DNA of 64,000 bases, from positions 94,976 through 158,975 of the forward strand of contig CANKCB010000002.1 of the NCBI GenBank assembly GCA_947480335.1. Reading direction: 5' to 3'. Made by a program: the position numbers and the translations under genes. This document shows positions 37,861 through 47,106 of this stretch, one piece after another; positions within the stretch are counted from its first letter, which is position 1, and every line of letters begins with the position of its first letter. The DNA comes from Gammaproteobacteria bacterium. GTDB lineage: Bacteria > Pseudomonadota > Gammaproteobacteria > Eutrophobiales > Eutrophobiaceae. The notes beneath the pieces were generated by a model that ran no database searches, had not been told where the DNA came from, and was given only the letters and a program-made list of their open reading frames with translations.

Positions 37861-38556
37861 ATGAAAATCCTGCTGGTAGAAGATGATTATGACGTTGCGA
37901 AAAACGTCTGTGAATACCTTGAGTCTTCGTCGCATGAAGTCGATGTGGCGCCGGATGGCTTGATAGGTCTGGATTGCGTTACTCAGGAAAAATACGACTG
38001 TGTTCTGCTTGATATCTCTTTGCCACGCCTGACCGGAATCCAGTTATGTGAACGCATTCGTAATTTGGGCTTCAGTAATCTGCCCATATTAATGCTGACA
38101 GCTATGGGCGATCTTTCGTACAAGGAAGAGGCGTATGCGGCCGGCGCGGATGATTATCTGGTCAAACCATTCGCCTTGAAAGAACTGGAACTGCGTATTG
38201 CAGCCCTGATCCGTCGTATATCCGGAAACACCAGCGAGAAAGTATTGCAGGTGGGAGATTTAAAGTACAACGTCATGACGCAACAGATTATGCGTGGTGA
38301 TCAGGAAATCGAGCTTGCAGCCATTTCGAAGAAGTTGCTGGAATTACTGATGCGCAATTCACATCGGGTCGTCCCCAAACTGGAAATTGAAAAGACTATC
38401 TGGGGCATTCCCCCTGACTCGCGGGATCTGGTACGTATTCATGTCCATACCTTGCGTGACGCGATAGACAAACCTTTTGCCACACCATTGCTGCATACGA
38501 TACGCGGCATAGGTTATCGTCTTTATGCAGACCTTGAAACCGTCCGCCAGCCTTAA
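37861..38556 (+). CDS. OmpR-family response regulator
   Basis: A 231-aa two-component regulator. The receiver domain has the acidic pocket E7-D8-D9, phosphoacceptor D51 in LLDISLP, and K in VKPFA; the C-terminal OmpR/PhoB winged helix recognises direct repeats. It overlaps the start of the sensor kinase by 32 bp. The neighbouring glycan locus carries three 11-bp-spaced direct half-sites upstream of its nucleotidyltransferase gene, a plausible target. Confidence 0.92.
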   Translation: MKILLVEDDYDVAKNVCEYLESSSHEVDVAPDGLIGLDCVTQEKYDCVLLDISLPRLTGIQLCERIRNLGFSNLPILMLTAMGDLSYKEEAYAAGADDYLVKPFALKELELRIAALIRRISGNTSEKVLQVGDLKYNVMTQQIMRGDQEIELAAISKKLLELLMRNSHRVVPKLEIEKTIWGIPPDSRDLVRIHVHTLRDAIDKPFATPLLHTIRGIGYRLYADLETVRQP

Positions 38557-39820
38557 AAGCAGGATTATCTCCGCGTCATTAAAAATGACGTTCCTGATTT
38601 GCCTTTCCTTTGCCACCGGTGTGTTTCTGGTCTATGAGTTTTCCGAACATGTATTGTTTGAAGAACATCTTGAGACAGACTACAACGCCTTTATGGATCA
38701 GTATGCTGTGGCGCCGCAGATTGCCGATGTGCCGATTATGAACCTTGAGATTTATATCGCCAAAGCGAGTGATAAAAGTACATTGCCCGACTATCTCGCC
38801 AACCTCCCTGAAGGCGCTGATGAAATCGTTGCCAATGGCAAGGTGCTCGAAATAACCATGCGTGAGCGAAATGGTAATATCTTTTACTTCGTGACTGGCG
38901 AAACGGCAATGGAAAAATTCGAGAGTTATCTGATTGTTTCTCTCATGGTCATTTTGGTTGTTATCTGTTTTATCGCTGCCTTGTTGGGCAAAAGTTTTGC
39001 AATCCATATCATCCAGCCAGTCACGGATTTGGCGACCAAGGTCAACAGCCTGATACGTACTGGTAAGGATCGAGATCAGGAACTATTTACCAGCAAGGAT
39101 GAAATTGAGGTCTTGTCACAGGCTATAGATTCATTCCATTTACGAGTAAACGAGTTGCTGGATCGGGAAAACAATTTTTCAAATGATGTCAGCCATGAGT
39201 TACGAACTCCTTTAATGGGAATCCAGTCTGCAGCAGAAAATATCCAGATCAATAAGGACAATGAGGGCAGGGTGCTGGAGCTGGCCCAGCGTATCGAAAC
39301 CCGTTGTAACCAGATGCGCTTGTTGATTGATTCCATGCTGGTACTGGCGAGGGACCCGGACAGTCTGGAAAATGATTTTGACCATATCAAATTACTCGAT
39401 GTCATTCATGAGCAGCTCGAGTATGTCAGTCACTATCTGGAGGCTAAAAAAATCTGTACGCAGATCGTGGAGAATGGTAGCCCTAAAGTGTTTTCTTCTT
39501 CCACTATCGTCAGCGTGGTCTTTGGTAATCTGCTGCGCAACGCAGTCCAGCATTCAGAGTCGGATAAAATCAGGATTGAACTGAATCCGGACGGATTCAC
39601 AATTACGGATTATGGTCGAGGCATGCCGGAAGTGCTGGTAAATAAAATCAATCGACGATATTCCGATTCCGAACGTATCAAGGAAAAAGGCAGTGGGATA
39701 GGGTTGTTACTGGTTAAACGAATTTGTGAGCACTTTAACTGGAAATTATTGGTAAGCTCCAGTCCCGGAGCCGGAACCAGCTTTGCGATCAATTTTGGTC
39801 AGTCGTTAGTGTCTAAATAA
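38525..39820 (+). CDS. Sensor histidine kinase
   Basis: A 431-aa membrane kinase. Two transmembrane helices (about 20-38 and 137-160) flank a periplasmic sensor of about 100 residues, followed by HAMP-like, HisKA (phosphorylated H224 in SHELRTPL) and HATPase domains (NLLRNAVQHS, DYGRGMP, GSGIGLLL). The periplasmic domain shows no recognised ligand motif. The start at 38525 overlaps the response regulator; no good ribosome site is seen, so translation is likely coupled. Confidence 0.92.
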   Translation: MQTLKPSASLKSRIISASLKMTFLICLSFATGVFLVYEFSEHVLFEEHLETDYNAFMDQYAVAPQIADVPIMNLEIYIAKASDKSTLPDYLANLPEGADEIVANGKVLEITMRERNGNIFYFVTGETAMEKFESYLIVSLMVILVVICFIAALLGKSFAIHIIQPVTDLATKVNSLIRTGKDRDQELFTSKDEIEVLSQAIDSFHLRVNELLDRENNFSNDVSHELRTPLMGIQSAAENIQINKDNEGRVLELAQRIETRCNQMRLLIDSMLVLARDPDSLENDFDHIKLLDVIHEQLEYVSHYLEAKKICTQIVENGSPKVFSSSTIVSVVFGNLLRNAVQHSESDKIRIELNPDGFTITDYGRGMPEVLVNKINRRYSDSERIKEKGSGIGLLLVKRICEHFNWKLLVSSSPGAGTSFAINFGQSLVSK

Positions 39821-39856
39821 AGTCTGGCAAGCAGGCTTTCTCATCCAGGTTATGGG

Positions 39857-40996
39857 CTACTGGTTATGCGCAAATCGTTGATACAGTTCCTGATATTGAC
39901 GCATCATCGCCGCGATATTGTACCGATTAATAATGTCCTGCCTCGCCTGTTGTTCTATTCTTCTGCGGGTTTTGTTTCCCATGTTTCTGGCTGTTAACAA
40001 AGCGTCAAATAGTTGCTCGGCATTGTTGGCAGCAAAAGCAATACTGTTGGATCCGTTTTCAACAATACCATCGTTATCTGCCGAATCAGCCACAATGGCA
40101 AGTCGCTCACAGGCCATTGATTCGAGTAGTGCATTCGGCATACCTTCCCAATGTGATGACAATACACTCACATTCGCCAGTCCGTAGTATGCGGCAATAT
40201 TTGGTACGGATTCAATAAAACGACAATTTTCACTAAGGTCATATTGACGTATCAATTTTTTCAGTTTGTTGAAATAACGGCGATTTTCCACCAGACCCAG
40301 ACAGAGCCACAGGATGGAAGATTCAGGGCTCAGACGTTTCTTTAGTTTTGACAGTGCGGCGAGGGTACATTCATGGTTTTTTTGTGGAGCGATGCGGCCA
40401 ACTGAAAGAACGACAAAAGTCTGTTCCGGGATATTGAGCTGCTGACGTAATGCAGTACGGGCTTCAAGTTCTACAGGCTGGAAATATTCTGTATCAATAC
40501 CATTGTGGATGATGACGATATTTTCGCTATTCATGCTGACATCATTGACCAGTTCATCTCGCGTTGCCTTTGAATTAACGATAATCCTGTCATATGCATG
40601 GCGTATCCGACGTTCAATCAGTTTTTCAACCCAGGTCTTGTTGGTATTTCTCAGTGAGGCAATAAAGCATGGGACGGCTGCGCTGCGTGTAGCCAGGTAA
40701 CTGAGCAGATTACCGTCAGTATTAAATGACTGGATAATATCCGGTTTCTCAAGGGCAATAATGCGTGAATATTCCCGGATAGCAGAAGGCAACTTCAGCT
40801 CACTATTGCTCAATGCATACAATCGATCCGAAGCTTGTGCATCCTTGAAATACACTCTATTCATGGTCTGGACTACAAAAAATGGGTCAAACAGTGTCCG
40901 ATCGAGTGATTTATACAGCAGGTAAATCTGTCTCGCCGCACCACTTTGGCGTAGTGTTCTGTGAAAAAACAGGATTTTAATTTTTCGAAAAGGCAT
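39857..40996 (-). CDS. Glycosyltransferase family 4
   Basis: A 379-aa cytoplasmic GT-B glycosyltransferase with FHRTLRQSGAARQIYLL at the N-terminus, VLSVGRIAPQKNHECTLAAL in the hinge, and the GT4 C-terminal signature HWEGMPNALLESMACERLAIV. It would transfer a sugar from a nucleotide donor to a glycan or lipid acceptor. It converges on the two-component system and diverges from the nucleotidyltransferase-HAD gene, suggesting that it belongs to the same surface-polymer locus. Confidence 0.9.
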   Translation of the reverse strand: MPFRKIKILFFHRTLRQSGAARQIYLLYKSLDRTLFDPFFVVQTMNRVYFKDAQASDRLYALSNSELKLPSAIREYSRIIALEKPDIIQSFNTDGNLLSYLATRSAAVPCFIASLRNTNKTWVEKLIERRIRHAYDRIIVNSKATRDELVNDVSMNSENIVIIHNGIDTEYFQPVELEARTALRQQLNIPEQTFVVLSVGRIAPQKNHECTLAALSKLKKRLSPESSILWLCLGLVENRRYFNKLKKLIRQYDLSENCRFIESVPNIAAYYGLANVSVLSSHWEGMPNALLESMACERLAIVADSADNDGIVENGSNSIAFAANNAEQLFDALLTARNMGNKTRRRIEQQARQDIINRYNIAAMMRQYQELYQRFAHNQ

Positions 40997-41350
40997 TAAA
41001 TCAGTGTAATTTTACGATTAATGTTAATTATAAGGTCTACACTGCACACATACGGTGGAAACATGCGTTACTGAGTTGACCAAACACGCAAAGTGCATAT
41101 CAAGGCTGACAGGTGGTACAGCTATCCGACACATTGCCAATTATACACATTAAAGATCACGGTTTATCAAATGCTTCATAAATACACTGTGCTTGTTACT
41201 GCGATTAAGTCAGGGTGTTGTTAACGTATTTTTAACGTTTTATTAATGAGATGCTCATTCTTGCCTCTTTAGTATTACCAACTACAAGAGCAGGTAATTT
41301 CTCCTCTTGATTGAATGCTGATGTCACTGTAATCAACAAAAGGTATCTTG
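40997..41350. other. Divergent intergenic region of the glycan locus
   Basis: A 354-bp AT-rich region between the GT4 gene and the nucleotidyltransferase-HAD gene. Besides the direct repeats listed separately, TATTAC (41273-41278) could be a -10 for the rightward gene, with GATGCT as a very poor -35. I see nothing coding. Confidence 0.55.
41221..41248. promoter_or_regulatory. Three direct half-sites, candidate OmpR-type operator
   Basis: TTAACG (41221), TTAACG (41232) and TTAATG (41243) recur at exactly 11-bp spacing, the arrangement bound by OmpR/PhoB-family regulators. The array ends just upstream of the poor -35 of the 41351 gene, as expected for an activator site. Confidence 0.55.
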
Positions 41351-42865
41351 ATGCAACCGATCACCGTCTTGCTGCTCGCTGGACACCGCTCCACTCCAGG
41401 GCTGCTGTGTGATGCCTATCACGAAAAGTACAAATCACTGATACCCGTCGCAGGTCTGCCCATGATTCTGCATCCGTTAAAAAGTCTTGCCGCACACACT
41501 CGCGTGGCAGAAATTCTGGTTCTGGCACAGGAACCGGAGAAATTACATAAAGCCCTGTCAGGGCATCAACCGGGCAACAAGGTTCGCTTTGTAAAAAGTA
41601 GCGGTAGTATCGCCAACACGGTACTGAGTTGTATTAATGATTACAAACTCAACTACCCTATACTGATCACAACGGCAGATAACTGTTTGCTCGGAGTGGA
41701 GGATATTGAAGAGTTTCTCGACAAGGCATATAAGGACCCATCGGATATCTCGGTGGCCTTTGCCAGTAAACAAAATGTGCTGGCTGCTTTCCCGCAGGTT
41801 AGACGTACCTGGATACCGTTTCGGGACACGGAGTTAACCGGTTGTAATCTGTTTCTTTTAAAAAGTGAACGTTCGGGTGAGTTGATACGCTTCTGGCAAA
41901 CCTACGAAAACAGCCCGAAAAAATTTCTGAAACTTGCCATGGCGTTGGGACCAGGATTCTTCTGGAATTTCATTCGCAAAAAACTGACGATGTCGGAAGC
42001 ATTTAGCAGATTGTCTACCATTGCCGGTGCTACGGTATCACCGGTGTTACTGGATAACCCACAGGTTTCAATCGATGCGGACAAGTACACCGATATACTT
42101 CAGATAGATCAGGTACTTAATAAAACTGGCAAAGTGTATAGTCAGCGACTTCCTTTTGAAGAAACGAATGGTCCAGTAGTTATTTTCGATCTGGACCGCA
42201 CCATTACCCGTCGTGGCACCTACACGCCGTTCCTGGCTTATTACGCACTCAATAAGCAACCCTGGCGCCTACTCTTTGCACCGATTATTGTCATTTTGAT
42301 GCTGTGTTATGTCTTGAAACTGCTTGATCGCAAGCAACTCAAGTCCAGTATGTTCGGATTACTGATAGGTAAACCCGGTCAGAAAGAGCTGGAAAATGTC
42401 TGTCAGGCCTTTGTCGATGAAACACTGGACAAACATGTGTATCCAGAAGCCTTATACACGATACGTGAATGGCAGAAAAAAAATGCGAGGCTGGTACTTG
42501 CGACTGCCAGTTATGACTGGATGGCTACTCTTTTTGCCAGTCGCTTAATGATTGATACGGTCATTGCAACACGGTCATTCGTTAAAAATGGCAAGGTAGT
42601 TGCCGGTGTCGTTGGCGAAAATTGTTATGGGCAGGCCAAGCGTACGATGATTTACAATGCCATTGGCCCGCTGCTTAATAGTGTTGACCACCCACGCGAT
42701 ATCTGGTTTTACACAGATCATCATTCAGACATCCCGATGTTATCCAGCTGCAATCATCCGGTAGGGGTCAATACCACGCACAAACTGGCCAACTGGATTA
42801 AATCCCGCCCGGATGGTCTATTGCTGGATTGGTATACTCCCCGGACACAATTTGCTGTAAAGTAA
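41351..42865 (+). CDS. Nucleotidyltransferase-HAD phosphatase fusion
   Basis: A 504-aa two-domain protein. The N-terminal half (1-255) resembles MobA/GlmU-type nucleotidyltransferases: LLLAGHRST, KSLIPVAGLPMI, a TTADNC metal aspartate, and VSIDADKYTDI near the domain end. The glycine loop departs from the usual GxGxR. The C-terminal half (about 275-500) is a HAD-IB phosphatase: FDLDRTIT (motif I), LATASYDW (II), GQAKR (III), YTDHHSDIPM (IV). It would activate an alcohol or sugar phosphate as a nucleotide donor, with a phosphatase acting nearby on the same route; this is inference. AAGG precedes ATG 41351. Confidence 0.8.
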   Translation: MQPITVLLLAGHRSTPGLLCDAYHEKYKSLIPVAGLPMILHPLKSLAAHTRVAEILVLAQEPEKLHKALSGHQPGNKVRFVKSSGSIANTVLSCINDYKLNYPILITTADNCLLGVEDIEEFLDKAYKDPSDISVAFASKQNVLAAFPQVRRTWIPFRDTELTGCNLFLLKSERSGELIRFWQTYENSPKKFLKLAMALGPGFFWNFIRKKLTMSEAFSRLSTIAGATVSPVLLDNPQVSIDADKYTDILQIDQVLNKTGKVYSQRLPFEETNGPVVIFDLDRTITRRGTYTPFLAYYALNKQPWRLLFAPIIVILMLCYVLKLLDRKQLKSSMFGLLIGKPGQKELENVCQAFVDETLDKHVYPEALYTIREWQKKNARLVLATASYDWMATLFASRLMIDTVIATRSFVKNGKVVAGVVGENCYGQAKRTMIYNAIGPLLNSVDHPRDIWFYTDHHSDIPMLSSCNHPVGVNTTHKLANWIKSRPDGLLLDWYTPRTQFAVK

Positions 42866-42895
42866 AATAGCTACCACCCTAGCTGAACAGATGAT

Positions 42896-42928
42896 CGGGT
42901 AAACGCGATGAAAGCGTTGTTGTACCCG
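42896..42928. other. Intercistronic inverted repeat
   Basis: CGGGTA-AACGC and GCGTT-(GTTG)-TACCCG form a two-part stem with a bulge, between the nucleotidyltransferase-HAD and glycerophosphotransferase genes. It lacks a T tract, so a processing or attenuating role is as likely as termination. Confidence 0.45.
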
Positions 42929-42972
42929 GCACGTTCATAACCCTTTCATACACTCAGCAGAAGACTGGTAAG

Positions 42973-44130
42973 ATGATGAGAACAGGGTTCCTTTTTAATC
43001 ATGACCATCTGCACCAGATCGCACACTCGGCCACGGTTGCTTTTGAACTCTCTCGCATTTCCTCAAGTGATGAAGTGGTGCTGATTACGACGTCGTCACA
43101 ACAACGAGAATATCTGGAAAAACTGGCTGCCGATTATCCTGACCATCGTTGTACATTTGTGTCCATCCAAATTCCCCTCTGGTTACGCATGCCAGCAGCC
43201 GTATTCGACAAGGTGCTGCCATTTAGCCGTATTCTGATTCTAAAATTGCATCTGGATTTGTTTGCCGGTTTTGATGTGCTGGTTGTTCCGGAAAAAACCT
43301 CGTTATTATTGCGTACCTTATTTGGTCTGCAAAAGCTGAAGCTGGTTTATACCGCGCACGGAGCAGGGGACCGCGCCATCGGGTTTAGTAAAAAACTGGC
43401 TAAATTTGATCTGATTTTTCTGTCCGGCGAAAAAATCCGTCAACGTATGCAACAGGATGGCTTGTTGACCACGGCCCGTTCCTGTGTGGTTGGCTATCCA
43501 AAGTTCGATGCCGTGCACGCGTTCACCCGACCACGACCTCAGTTGTTTAATAATGACAAGCCGGTGGTTTTATATAACCCACACTTTTCTCCGGCGCTTT
43601 CTTCCTGGTTCAGCATGGGAACCGCGATACTCGATTACTTCTGCAAGTCTGATAAATACAATCTGATTTTTGCCCCGCATTTGATGCTGTTCAAACGCAA
43701 ATTACATCTTGCCCAGGGTAAACCCGCTATCGGTTTCGCATATAAAATACCTGAGCGGTATTACAAGTATCCGAACGTTCTCATTGATACCGGTAGTATG
43801 GCCTGTGCGGACATGACCTATACCCTTGCCGCAGACATCTATCTGGGTGATGTCAGCAGCCAGGTCTGGGAGTTCCTGCTTAAGCCACGCCCCTGTGTGT
43901 TTGCCAACCCGCATCAGGCCAATTGGCAAACGGATTCCAATTATCTGCACTGGCATACCGGGCCGGTGTTCGAACGTATCGAACAACTGGATGCAAGTCT
44001 GGAACAAGCAATACTTTCCCATACGAGCTATCGTGCTCAACAAATCGAGATGTTCAGACAAACTTTCGAGATAAATGAAGAAAGCTCCTCTCGTCAGGGG
44101 GCCAGGGCGATCTATCAATTCATGCGCTAG
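42973..44130 (+). CDS. CDP-glycerol glycerophosphotransferase-like protein
   Basis: A 385-aa GT-B-like enzyme of the TagB/TagF family that adds glycerol-phosphate or similar polyol-phosphate units from a CDP-linked donor. Family features visible are VLYNPHFSP, YNLIFAPHLMLF, and IDTGSMACADMTYTLAADIYLGDVSSQVWE with the conserved aspartates, then the FANPH stretch. It has no transmembrane helix. Placed between a nucleotidyltransferase-HAD fusion and a flippase, it could build a teichoic-acid-like phosphopolymer on a Gram-negative surface. AAGACTGGTAAG precedes paired ATGs at 42973 and 42976. Confidence 0.82.
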   Translation: MMRTGFLFNHDHLHQIAHSATVAFELSRISSSDEVVLITTSSQQREYLEKLAADYPDHRCTFVSIQIPLWLRMPAAVFDKVLPFSRILILKLHLDLFAGFDVLVVPEKTSLLLRTLFGLQKLKLVYTAHGAGDRAIGFSKKLAKFDLIFLSGEKIRQRMQQDGLLTTARSCVVGYPKFDAVHAFTRPRPQLFNNDKPVVLYNPHFSPALSSWFSMGTAILDYFCKSDKYNLIFAPHLMLFKRKLHLAQGKPAIGFAYKIPERYYKYPNVLIDTGSMACADMTYTLAADIYLGDVSSQVWEFLLKPRPCVFANPHQANWQTDSNYLHWHTGPVFERIEQLDASLEQAILSHTSYRAQQIEMFRQTFEINEESSSRQGARAIYQFMR

Positions 44131-44194
44131 CCAGTTATCCCTTCTCCAGACAATTTTGTTATGATGGGGCCTACTTCAATCCTGGTTTGAGTCT

Positions 44195-45718
44195 ATGTCT
44201 TCTGGAAAATCGCATGATGCCCGTTCGGCCGTAGCTAAGGGCGTCTGGTCGGTATTTCTTGCCAAAACCGGGCAGGTAATAGAGCTGGTGACTACCCCCG
44301 CCTATACCTGGATGTTTGGTCTGGCGACCTACGGACTGTATTCCGTGCTCTGGTCGATGGTCAACGTACTGGAAAAGATCACAGAGCTGGCGATGACAAA
44401 TTCGTTACAGCGGGTCTTGCCTGGCCAGACTGACGAAGAGTCGAAAGCGGCGGTCATCAAAGGGGCCTTACTGCTAGGTATTATCCCCGGTATCCTCGTC
44501 GCATTGATTCTGTCGTTAGCCGCACCTGTAGTAGCGCCGTATTTTAATGTGGCCGATCAGGACAGCCAGCAACTGGAAATGTCCATTCGTTTGTTTATCT
44601 GGGCCTTGCCACTATGGGGCGCGGTGGAAATTACCACCTCGGCATTACGTGCTTGCAAGGCATTCGGTCCGGAAATCCGCCTGCGTCTGTTCTGGGAACA
44701 AATCATGCGACTGGTACTGTCAGTCATCTTCTGGCTGGCCGATACTGGCACACTGGCCATCTTGTATGCGCATCTGTGTTCCCTTACGCTGACTGTCTTC
44801 TTGTCGTTTCGTGTATTGCACAAGTATTGTCATCTGGGTTTGATCTGGCGATCGCGTTTGACGAGTACCATTCTGCACGATCTGTTTTTGTCCGGATTGT
44901 CAGTGTTGCCGGTCAATATCTCGGGCCGAATCTTTTCAGATATGCCGGTCATTATTCTCAACTTCCTGTTGCCCGGCGCCGCGGGTGCGGATGCGGCCGG
45001 CATGTATAACATCGCCCGCAAGATTGCGAGTATTCCACAGCTGGTCGGAGTGGTGTTCACGCATGTGGTGGCGCCAATTGCTGCTTCAACAGAAAACCGC
45101 GATGAAACTACGATACAGGCGCTCTACGCTTTTTCTTTACGGGTGTCGTTGTTGCTAGCCTTGCCTACCACAGCAGCATTAATTGTATCCGTTGATTCGA
45201 TGTTGTCGTTGTTCGTCACCGGCGTTGCTGCTGCCTGGCCGATTGTGGTGATCTTGACTGTCGCACGCGGTTTTGAAGCGGCTGTAGGTCCGGCAACTGC
45301 CATTCAGCAGGTGATCAGTCATCGTGGCATGCCATTATTAAATACCATTATCGGATTAATCATTGCAACAGTCGTCACACTGGCCACCTATGCATTTTTC
45401 AATACACTGAGTATCGCTATCGGTGTCGCCATCGCGCAGATCGTGATGGCCATAATGGCCGTCTGGCAATTATCCCGCATGGAAAAAATCCATGTGCTGG
45501 ATAATAGTTTCGTCCGCGCGCTGATAACTGCACTGGCTGTCAGCCTGATCCTCCTGCTGGTTGGAAAACTACTGACCTCGCTGCCAGCCACTCTTCAGGG
45601 AGTAGTCATTTTACCCGTATATCTGCTCTCACTCTGGACCGGCCTGCGTTACGCATTACCGGAACATGACCGACTAGCGCTGGGGAAGTTGGGGAAGCGA
45701 CTCAGGTTAGTGTCCTAA
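44195..45718 (+). CDS. Polysaccharide flippase (Wzx-like)
   Basis: A 507-aa inner-membrane protein with about 12-14 transmembrane helices of the MATE/MVF polysaccharide-exporter type: YTWMFGLATYGLYSVLWSMVN near the start and a long run of hydrophobic segments. Relatives flip undecaprenyl- or lipid-linked glycans across the inner membrane. It follows the glycerophosphotransferase by 64 bp, completing a synthesis-export module. No polymerase (Wzy) or ligase is nearby. Confidence 0.85.
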   Translation: MSSGKSHDARSAVAKGVWSVFLAKTGQVIELVTTPAYTWMFGLATYGLYSVLWSMVNVLEKITELAMTNSLQRVLPGQTDEESKAAVIKGALLLGIIPGILVALILSLAAPVVAPYFNVADQDSQQLEMSIRLFIWALPLWGAVEITTSALRACKAFGPEIRLRLFWEQIMRLVLSVIFWLADTGTLAILYAHLCSLTLTVFLSFRVLHKYCHLGLIWRSRLTSTILHDLFLSGLSVLPVNISGRIFSDMPVIILNFLLPGAAGADAAGMYNIARKIASIPQLVGVVFTHVVAPIAASTENRDETTIQALYAFSLRVSLLLALPTTAALIVSVDSMLSLFVTGVAAAWPIVVILTVARGFEAAVGPATAIQQVISHRGMPLLNTIIGLIIATVVTLATYAFFNTLSIAIGVAIAQIVMAIMAVWQLSRMEKIHVLDNSFVRALITALAVSLILLLVGKLLTSLPATLQGVVILPVYLLSLWTGLRYALPEHDRLALGKLGKRLRLVS

Positions 45719-45809: not shown

Positions 45810-46760
45810 TTACCTGGCCAGATACTCTTCGAGTCTATCAAAGCTTCCACCCCATCCTTGTGACATACCAGTTTTAGCTTTATTGAAAGTTTCACGTTCA
45901 ATAGGAGTCGCATCACCAGCCACTTCCCATTTTAGGTTCACTCTGGTTGTATCTGGACTCTCTGCCTGAAATAAAATAGTTGTCCTCATGACTTCAGGCC
46001 AGGTGGGAGCCATCGGGTGACGAGTGATTTTTTCGTTTTCGTCGCAGAAGGATTGGGTATAGACAATACGATGAGGTTTAACAAGCTCCAGATATTTGGC
46101 TATGCCATACATCTTTGTATCACCGACGCCTGTCATACTGTAAAAGCTACTTCCACCTGGTTTAATGTCAGCTCTTATATAATTTATGTTTGAACCTGCT
46201 GGACCCGTCCATTGACCAAGATGCTTTGGGTCAGTCCACACATCAAACATCATGTTTAGTGGTGCATCAAAAGTTTGATTGATCACAAAAATATCCTGTG
46301 AAGTGGATTCCAATGCCAGGTATTCGGCAAGACGATCCCAGGTTGAATTCCCACCTGCTTTTTTGATGAATTTTCTGGTTTCAGCTGCAGCATCAGCTGT
46401 CGCTAAAGCCATGGTCATTTCCATTCTGGTTTTGCCATCAAGATCAATAAAATTGACCGTCACACGAAACAACGGCGGTTGGTCATCGTTTCCACCATGG
46501 TCATAGACCATACGGGAATGTTTTACGACTTCGAGATAGTGTGTGTTATTAGGATAATCGACACCATCGGGCCCATGCATAGTATATTTCCAATGACCGC
46601 CCGTTCTCACATCCTTGCTATGGTTGGTAAGCGTAAACCCGCGAGGCCCCCACCATTGGGCTACATGCTTTGGGTCTACCCAGGCATCCCAGACCATCTT
46701 AACGGGAGCATCGTAAATTCGTTCGATATAGAGTTCGTTTGGTTTAATTTTTGCGGCCAT
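45810..46760 (-). CDS. Tandem SRPBCC (AHSA1) domain protein
   Basis: A 316-aa protein made of two START/AHSA1-like domains (about 8-150 and 158-315), each beginning with an FDAP or YDAP hydrophobic-ligand entry motif and a WTDP/WVDPKH segment. Such domains bind hydrophobic ligands. It overlaps the start-proximal ArsR-type regulator gene by 17 bp, and pairs of this kind are common; the regulator may sense the same ligand. Single-domain versions are more usual, so the duplication is a noteworthy variant. Confidence 0.85.
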   Translation of the reverse strand: MAAKIKPNELYIERIYDAPVKMVWDAWVDPKHVAQWWGPRGFTLTNHSKDVRTGGHWKYTMHGPDGVDYPNNTHYLEVVKHSRMVYDHGGNDDQPPLFRVTVNFIDLDGKTRMEMTMALATADAAAETRKFIKKAGGNSTWDRLAEYLALESTSQDIFVINQTFDAPLNMMFDVWTDPKHLGQWTGPAGSNINYIRADIKPGGSSFYSMTGVGDTKMYGIAKYLELVKPHRIVYTQSFCDENEKITRHPMAPTWPEVMRTTILFQAESPDTTRVNLKWEVAGDATPIERETFNKAKTGMSQGWGGSFDRLEEYLAR

Positions 46761-47106
46761 TTTTCTTTCCTTTCTTATTCGTTGTTAATGTTTTTAAATA
46801 AGTATCAAGTCTGTCGAAACTTGCTTCCCAAAACTTCCTATAGTCGCCAATCCAGTTTGCGGCTTCTTTTAGTGCTTCAGCCTCAATACGGCAAGGGCGC
46901 CATTGCGCCTCTCTCCCTCGAGAAATAAGCCCGGCCTTTTCCAGTACTTTAAGATGTTTGGTAATTGCCGGCGCAGAAATATTAAATGGCTTGGAAAGCT
47001 CTTGTACTGTGGTTTCACCGCTGGCCAGCCTGGCTAATATTGCCCTGCGAGTAGGATCCGAAAGTGCCATAAAAGTCAGCGTTAATCTGGATTCTGCTTG
47101 TTTCAT
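46744..47106 (-). CDS. ArsR-family transcriptional regulator
   Basis: A 120-aa winged-helix regulator: LSDPTRRAILARLASGETTVQEL, then SAPAITKHLKVLEKAGLI as the recognition helix. It lacks the CxC metal site of arsenic sensors, so it is likely to sense something else. The gene overlaps the tandem SRPBCC gene by 17 bp and should be coexpressed with it. A perfect GTTAATTAAC palindrome at 47120-47129 upstream is a possible autoregulatory operator. Confidence 0.9.
   Translation of the reverse strand: MKQAESRLTLTFMALSDPTRRAILARLASGETTVQELSKPFNISAPAITKHLKVLEKAGLISRGREAQWRPCRIEAEALKEAANWIGDYRKFWEASFDRLDTYLKTLTTNKKGKKNGRKN

Follow-up and report, generated by a model that had tools for sequence, protein, structure and literature searches.

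What does a transferase related in fold to teichoic acid polymerases do in a Gram-negative chromosome, where it stands between a nucleotidyltransferase-phosphatase fusion and a flippase, close to a two-component pair? The question is raised by six genes at positions 37861 to 45718 of a 64,000-nucleotide stretch (the window) from a gammaproteobacterium of the family Eutrophobiaceae (assembly GCA_947480335.1, contig CANKCB010000002.1, positions 94,976 to 158,975). The original prediction, made from the window alone, saw in them a teichoic-like phosphopolymer locus under two-component control. Our comparison points to a different role: the fusion enzyme and the TagF-fold transferase probably form a headgroup-extension module for phosphosphingolipids, an alternative to the unrelated enzyme of the studied pathway. 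The six genes themselves were correctly predicted; all are open frames at the following coordinates and match the named families in profile searches.

37861..38556, + strand: OmpR-family response regulator (PF00072, PF00486), a loose companion
38525..39820, + strand: sensor histidine kinase (PF00512, PF02518), a loose companion
39857..40996, - strand: glycosyltransferase of family 4 (GT4), divergent from the fusion gene, a loose companion
41351..42865, + strand: fusion of a MobA/CofC-like nucleotidyltransferase (NTP-transferase) and a HAD-IB phosphatase, 504 amino acids (aa)
42973..44130, + strand: TagF-fold GT-B transferase, PF04464-like, 385 aa
44195..45718, + strand: polysaccharide-flippase-like membrane protein (PF01943 43 bits, PF13440 40.6 bits, both above cutoff)

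The fusion and the transferase are treated here as a unit, and the regulators, GT4 and flippase as looser companions, because the pair is kept in four of the five genomes of the genus examined and the companions vary. The fusion was found in the genome of the window, in G369 (three copies), G370 and G371, and not in G372; the same four genomes have a complete transferase, always beside a fusion copy, with a 91-aa open frame between the two on contig C17 of G369. The flippase adjoins the transferase in the window, on contig C20 of G369 and in G378, and is not beside it in G370, G371 or on C17 of G369. A GT4 copy in G369 is 63% identical and divergent to a fusion gene, and a response regulator copy (83% identical) lies upstream of a fusion-transferase pair there. 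Co-conservation, proposed earlier as a check on the whole locus, is thus seen for the pair and is looser for the other four genes. The link to the suggested two-component control is weak: in G369 the regulator pair is directly upstream of a fusion and transferase, which speaks for a link, but kinase relatives with at least 44% identity occur in four (the window's genome, G369, G373 and G375) of 27 genomes searched (25 of the family, G202 and G120), two of which, G373 and G375, have them on contigs other than the transferase's. In these two genomes the regulator and kinase relatives (L114:5702-8967 and L115:2653-5928, 71-73% and 43-52% identical to the nearest window or G369 copy) adjoin a kinase-like gene, of Ser/Thr type by eye, a neighbour that suggests another role for the regulator pair.

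Within the family, the transferase was found only in genomes with ceramide genes. Across the 25 family genomes, a close serine palmitoyltransferase (SPT) gene (at least 61% identity to the L044 gene) is present in 12 and a ceramide-synthase-like gene in 11, the latter a name that we presume from cluster position, as no Pfam or NCBIfam model matches. The transferase is present in eight (six complete; partial in G372 and G373), all inside both the SPT and the ceramide-synthase-like sets. With genomes taken as independent, which their kinship makes optimistic for every p value, Fisher tests gave 4.6e-4 for transferase and SPT (0.0052 for complete genes; 0.011 and 0.043 by genus) and 1.5e-4 for transferase and the ceramide-synthase-like gene (0.0026 for complete genes; 0.0049 and 0.025 by genus). 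In a sample of 369 genomes of the class, 24 have the ceramide-synthase-like gene, five the transferase and three both (p 0.0022). Genes were predicted with a home-made caller, which overlooked the transferase of G120 (recovered by six-frame reading) and called none in G373.

Several neighbourhoods of homologues point to the same pathway. Six loci came out of a genome-contig scan with the transferase, a search confined to close relatives: three titled Nevskia and one each Nevskiaceae, gammaproteobacterium and Spartobacteria. In four of the six (L003-L006) the transferase comes straight after SPT (NF047599 652 and 660 bits in L003 and L005, the two tested) and is followed by a desaturase gene (PF00487 and the sphingolipid desaturase domain PF08557 in L005, the one tested); genes for an acyl ligase, a reductase and an acyl carrier protein (ACP) are upstream, and relatives of a kinase and a CDP-alcohol transferase downstream. 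L005 also has a GT4 gene near the transferase. Within or at the edge of a sphingolipid cluster lie the transferases of G202 (L037) and G375 (L047) as well, bringing the count to six of the 19 transferase genes or fragments viewed in context; the other 13 contexts include a lipopolysaccharide (LPS) core locus (L038), an Lpt-type operon (L007) and spots without a clear theme. Cluster labels were profile-checked in L047 and, for some genes, in the window's genome, L003, L005 and L112, and elsewhere follow BLAST similarity. Beside the transferase of G371 and G378 there is an asparagine-synthase-type amidotransferase (L043:11043-12947 and L092:1-1638, 50% identical; profile run on L043), which might amidate a carboxylate headgroup.

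The genome of the window has a ceramide cluster of its own, at about 86-97 kb of contig C1 (G000:C1, locus L084). It encodes an SPT (NF047599 609 bits, cutoff 500), a fatty acyl-AMP ligase (839 bits, cutoff 600), LptG and LptF (both above cutoff), a protein with a diacylglycerol (DAG) kinase domain (L084:8111-9103, DAGK_cat 61.7 bits, cutoff 23.6) and a protein with a sub-threshold Tam41 match (L084:7131-8111, 16 bits, cutoff 24). Also present are a copy of the ceramide-synthase-like gene with 60% identity, an ACP (under its profile cutoffs) and a gene that we take, from homology to cluster genes and from position, to be a reductase. Only a few genes separate the LptF and LptG genes of the cluster (L084:9122-11255) from KdsC-, KdsD- and LptA/B/C-like genes (by eye).

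The ceramide diphosphoglycerate (CPG2) pathway of Caulobacter crescentus (CpgA-D, CC_1153, CC_1158), as set out in the available parts of PMC12275187 and PMC11324152, has several elements in common with this gene set: ceramide genes, a DAG-kinase-type kinase, LptF/LptG-family genes, a candidate enzyme for phosphate removal and a putative nucleotidyltransferase relative of MobA/CofC type. A DAG kinase domain is reported for CpgB (PMC10331486) and a CDP-DAG-synthase domain for CpgC (CC_1161), and the predicted DAG-kinase-domain and Tam41-like proteins of the window's genome would fit these two descriptions. Unlike Caulobacter, as far as those partial sources go, the genus has no close CpgA-like or CpgD-like gene and instead has the TagF-fold transferase and the NTP-HAD fusion, on another contig. 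CpgA-like genes (E 1e-5, L047 query) and CpgD-like genes (at least 48% identity) were found in none of the five genus genomes, and both are present in all six genomes from other genera of the family in which the ceramide-synthase-like gene occurs (CpgD-like identities 48-100%; p 0.0022 against the genus). These searches covered 19 genomes: 15 of the 25 family genomes (all 11 that have the ceramide-synthase-like gene, and G376, G374, G235 and G119, which do not) and the four other transferase-positive genomes of the class, two with the gene (G120, G202) and two without (G145, G212). All 19 genomes, those of the genus among them, have weaker matches to the CpgD query (24-34%), which may still include a distant functional counterpart; the one beside the cluster of the window's genome is MurU (274.8 bits, cutoff 250). 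The standalone NTP-transferase gene and the phosphoesterase of the relatives' clusters were not seen in the ceramide clusters of the genus, the phosphoesterase without a genome-wide search. The names CpgA-like and CpgD-like come from domains, position and the available parts of published descriptions (PMC12275187, PMC11324152, PMC13228409, PMC10331486), not from Caulobacter sequences.

Both halves of the fusion have counterparts in sphingolipid clusters. Scanned from a TTG start at 41348, the protein scores 26.8 bits on PF12804 (just under the cutoff of 27), 98.2 on PF12710 and 95.8 on TIGR01490 (just under 98.3). Its N half aligns over its full length with standalone NTP-transferases from the clusters of the relatives examined, none of them from Caulobacter, at 24-32% identity. 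In the G120 sphingolipid cluster a standalone HAD gene (L112:5575-6285) lies between the CpgD-like and CpgA-like genes and is 31% identical to the C half of the fusion over 204 residues (105 bits), and a standalone NTP-transferase gene of the same cluster is 28% identical to the N half (89 bits). The halves are therefore separate genes of one cluster, which is evidence for a shared pathway, with the caveat that the HAD-IB family is large and that the G120 transferase is on a different contig. The HAD adjoining the Spartobacteria transferase (L007) scores 98.6 bits against the fusion HAD, and the other HAD-IB proteins in the set of 717 proteins compared reach 63-71 bits over 131-150 residues. 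In a tree of 17 NTP domains with weak forks and long branches, the fusion falls firmly neither beside the cluster genes nor beside a third NTP-transferase paralogue of the genus. The structure model of the fusion (pLDDT 88.8, pTM 0.83) matches PDB 2dpw and 3fvv, which fit the N and C halves by sequence; these closest solved structures, TTHA0179 and a Bordetella HAD protein, are separate proteins whose function is not named in the PDB entries, whereas here the two are fused. The match of the fusion profile to 3-phosphoglycerate guanylyltransferase is weak (E 0.004, below what counts as a domain match); it fits a putative phosphoglycerate-type substrate and proves nothing.

Two side observations concern the same protein family. 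Two of the three G369 fusion copies (L040:8029-9840 and L041:9317-11137) are extended at the C terminus, where a membrane-like stretch and then a PepSY-like region can be made out by eye; the lone 91-aa gene adjoining the third copy (L040:14795-15070) resembles this extension, and the window fusion has none. The third NTP-transferase paralogue (L052:9415-10245, on G000:C9) has the same neighbours in the window's genome, G369 and G372.

A TagF-like phosphotransfer by the transferase is plausible from its predicted fold. The model (pLDDT 88.7, pTM 0.87) has TagF at rank 1 in both Foldseek and VIA (VIA Z 23.8, rmsd 3.5, 320 aligned residues), and the wall teichoic acid polymerases TagF and TarL (PDB 3l7i-3l7m, 8va1) are the best-matching fold across the whole model. 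By sequence the family is borderline: the protein scores 21.8 bits on PF04464, or 22.5 with its frame neighbours, at a cutoff of 22.1. The alignment invariants H129-G130, H236, G292-D293-x-S-S and E300-F301 appear to agree with the PF04464 pattern. A search of solved structures with the transferase profile returned three matches, none meaningful (best E 0.071). In the transferase tree (16 rows) the basal forks are weak, and G145, G212 and G378 are on long branches. A second PF04464 match in the window's genome, on contig C19, turned out to be LpxB (TIGR00215 345.6 bits), and its 21.9 bits on PF04464 equal the score of the transferase. Borderline PF04464 matches in Gram-negatives consequently need not signal teichoic-like polymers. 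The CDP-glycerol-type phosphotransferase of the original prediction is thus plausible from the fold, and the label is weak by profile.

From gene content, co-occurrence and linkage, together with the predicted fold, we infer the substrates, the order of reactions and the role of the flippase in the proposed module. The cluster on contig C1 would make ceramide, as its gene content suggests, and its DAG-kinase-type enzyme probably phosphorylates it. The NTP domain of the fusion would make a nucleotide-activated phospho-acid or polyol, for which our best guess is CDP-glycerate; the TagF-fold enzyme would attach the phosphoglycerate (or similar) unit to the headgroup of ceramide phosphate, and a phosphate would be split off by the HAD domain. 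The flippase, a possible translocase of lipids or lipid-linked molecules, and the LptF/LptG-type proteins may help to move the product. In the genus, the module would replace the CpgA/CpgD step of the Caulobacter pathway; where relatives have retained CpgA and CpgD, it may add a further decoration through the transferase or share the donor. It is distinctly unlikely that the product is instead a short, ceramide-anchored, lipoteichoic-like polymer, with several phosphoglycerate units placed on the sphingolipid from CDP-glycerate supplied by the fusion; if so, the outer membrane of a Gram-negative would carry an anionic chain of teichoic-like kind.

Several observations weigh against a sphingolipid module. 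In the genus it is on a contig other than that of the ceramide cluster. In G372, which has the ceramide cluster, the fusion was not found and the transferase is reduced to a C-terminal piece of 119 aa, at a locus syntenic with C20 of G369 where the flippase is retained and adjoins the fragment. G375, G378, G202 and G120 have CpgA-like and CpgD-like genes alongside the transferase, and the two solutions are thus not mutually exclusive. Outside the genus, G376 has a close SPT and neither a ceramide-synthase-like, a CpgA-like or close CpgD-like gene nor the transferase; CpgA loss is therefore not confined to the genus. The third NTP-transferase paralogue (the window's genome, G369 and G372) resembles the cluster genes no less than the fusion does, with a mean identity of 29% in both cases. 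Two of the five transferase-positive genomes of the class sample, G145 and G212 (36-39% identity, the lowest among these positives), have no ceramide-synthase-like gene, and the G145 transferase is in an LPS-core locus, near a Kdo transferase and a heptosyltransferase. The Spartobacteria locus L007, with no sphingolipid gene in view, has the transferase and HAD in an Lpt-type operon. Finally, UDP-GlcNAc 2-epimerases and PglA nearly equal TagF in structure (VIA Z 22.6 against 23.8; Foldseek 1.1e-10 against 7.9e-11).

The G145, G212 and L007 contexts would fit an alternative in which the LPS core or lipid A receives a phosphate-linked substituent from the two enzymes, whose link to sphingolipid genes would be indirect. 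In G145 the homologue is next to a second PF04464-type protein (36.8 bits; the tandem pair is at L038:8391-10594, in the LPS-core region), and in L007 an ABC gene and an LptF/LptG-family gene accompany the transferase and HAD. We consider this rather unlikely: the homologues in its favour are the more distant ones (36-43%), six loci have ceramide genes, and among the 25 family genomes no transferase was found outside those with SPT. The window's genome also has one Wzy_C protein elsewhere (G000:C1:64609-65079), amid glycosyltransferase-like genes (by eye), one of which is 25% identical to a heptosyltransferase-family gene of L038; a separate LPS locus thus probably exists elsewhere in the genome.

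The near-equality with the epimerases bears on another alternative, in which the transferase, as a GT-B glycosyltransferase or an epimerase-like enzyme, would put a sugar on ceramide or some other lipid and the NTP domain would make the nucleotide sugar. Glycosyltransferases too are close in structure, the weak PF04464 score is equalled by LpxB, and the GT4 gene near the L005 transferase would suit it. Yet the top five VIA places all go to TagF entries (TarL is merely level with the epimerases), the invariant residues appear to fit the PF04464 pattern, and a sugar pathway leaves the link to the HAD domain unexplained; this alternative is unlikely.

That leaves the teichoic-like polymer itself, of glycerol or polyol phosphate, built on a lipid carrier, exported by the flippase and controlled by the two-component pair, as first predicted. 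The TagF fold, the flippase and GT4 nearby, and the placing of the regulator pair right before the core in G369 are in its favour. The gene search proposed as a check found no CTP:glycerol-3-phosphate cytidylyltransferase (TagD) in the window's genome, about 95% complete, where the best match has 15 bits against a cutoff of 165.4; as a control, the same search was above cutoff in two of 14 genomes. The transferase is moreover only 12-15% identical to TagF and TarL, nothing else found points to a polymer, the context of the core enzymes elsewhere is ceramide synthesis and the regulator pair is rarely kept alongside. The prediction of a teichoic-like polymer was therefore not borne out, and we regard it as very improbable. 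Gram-negative capsules of teichoic-like type have been published before (PMC5974469), and the capsule polymerases described there and in PMC8262930 are likewise TagF-like enzymes in Gram-negatives. The capsule multienzymes 8a0c and 8qoy are among the fold matches of the transferase, but their chains exceed 1000 residues, against 385 aa here.

A headgroup module of this kind would matter in several ways. How the second CPG2 headgroup unit is added in Caulobacter is still open, and the genus offers an apparent independent solution. The fusion suggests that the CC_1153-type nucleotidyltransferase, so far poorly understood, may work with a phosphatase. In the available part of PMC12275187 the CpgD authors compare the CPG2 headgroup to TagF-made teichoic acid, and report that the survival of Caulobacter without LPS partly depends on the anionic sphingolipid. 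The module would illustrate how membrane lipids could be made with a fold taken over from teichoic acid synthesis. Our searches of the open-access literature found no description of this locus type, which does not prove its absence from print.

Within the locus the regulator and kinase genes overlap by 32 bases, and gaps of 36, 354, 107 and 64 bases follow between kinase and GT4, GT4 and fusion, fusion and transferase, and transferase and flippase. The regulator pair and the run from fusion to flippase are not one operon, because the opposite-strand GT4 and the gaps of 36 and 354 bases lie between them. The promoter scan gave 10 sites, fewer than the shuffle mean of 13.9, and there are 12 terminator-like sites against 8.0 in shuffles. 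An origin as a genomic island was considered and set aside, with no sign of one: the G+C content of the locus (44-50%) is near that of its surroundings (45-53%), and ARAGORN found no tRNA anywhere in the window. Downstream, at 45810-47106 on the - strand, an AHSA1-domain protein beside an ArsR-type regulator appears to be an unrelated neighbour.

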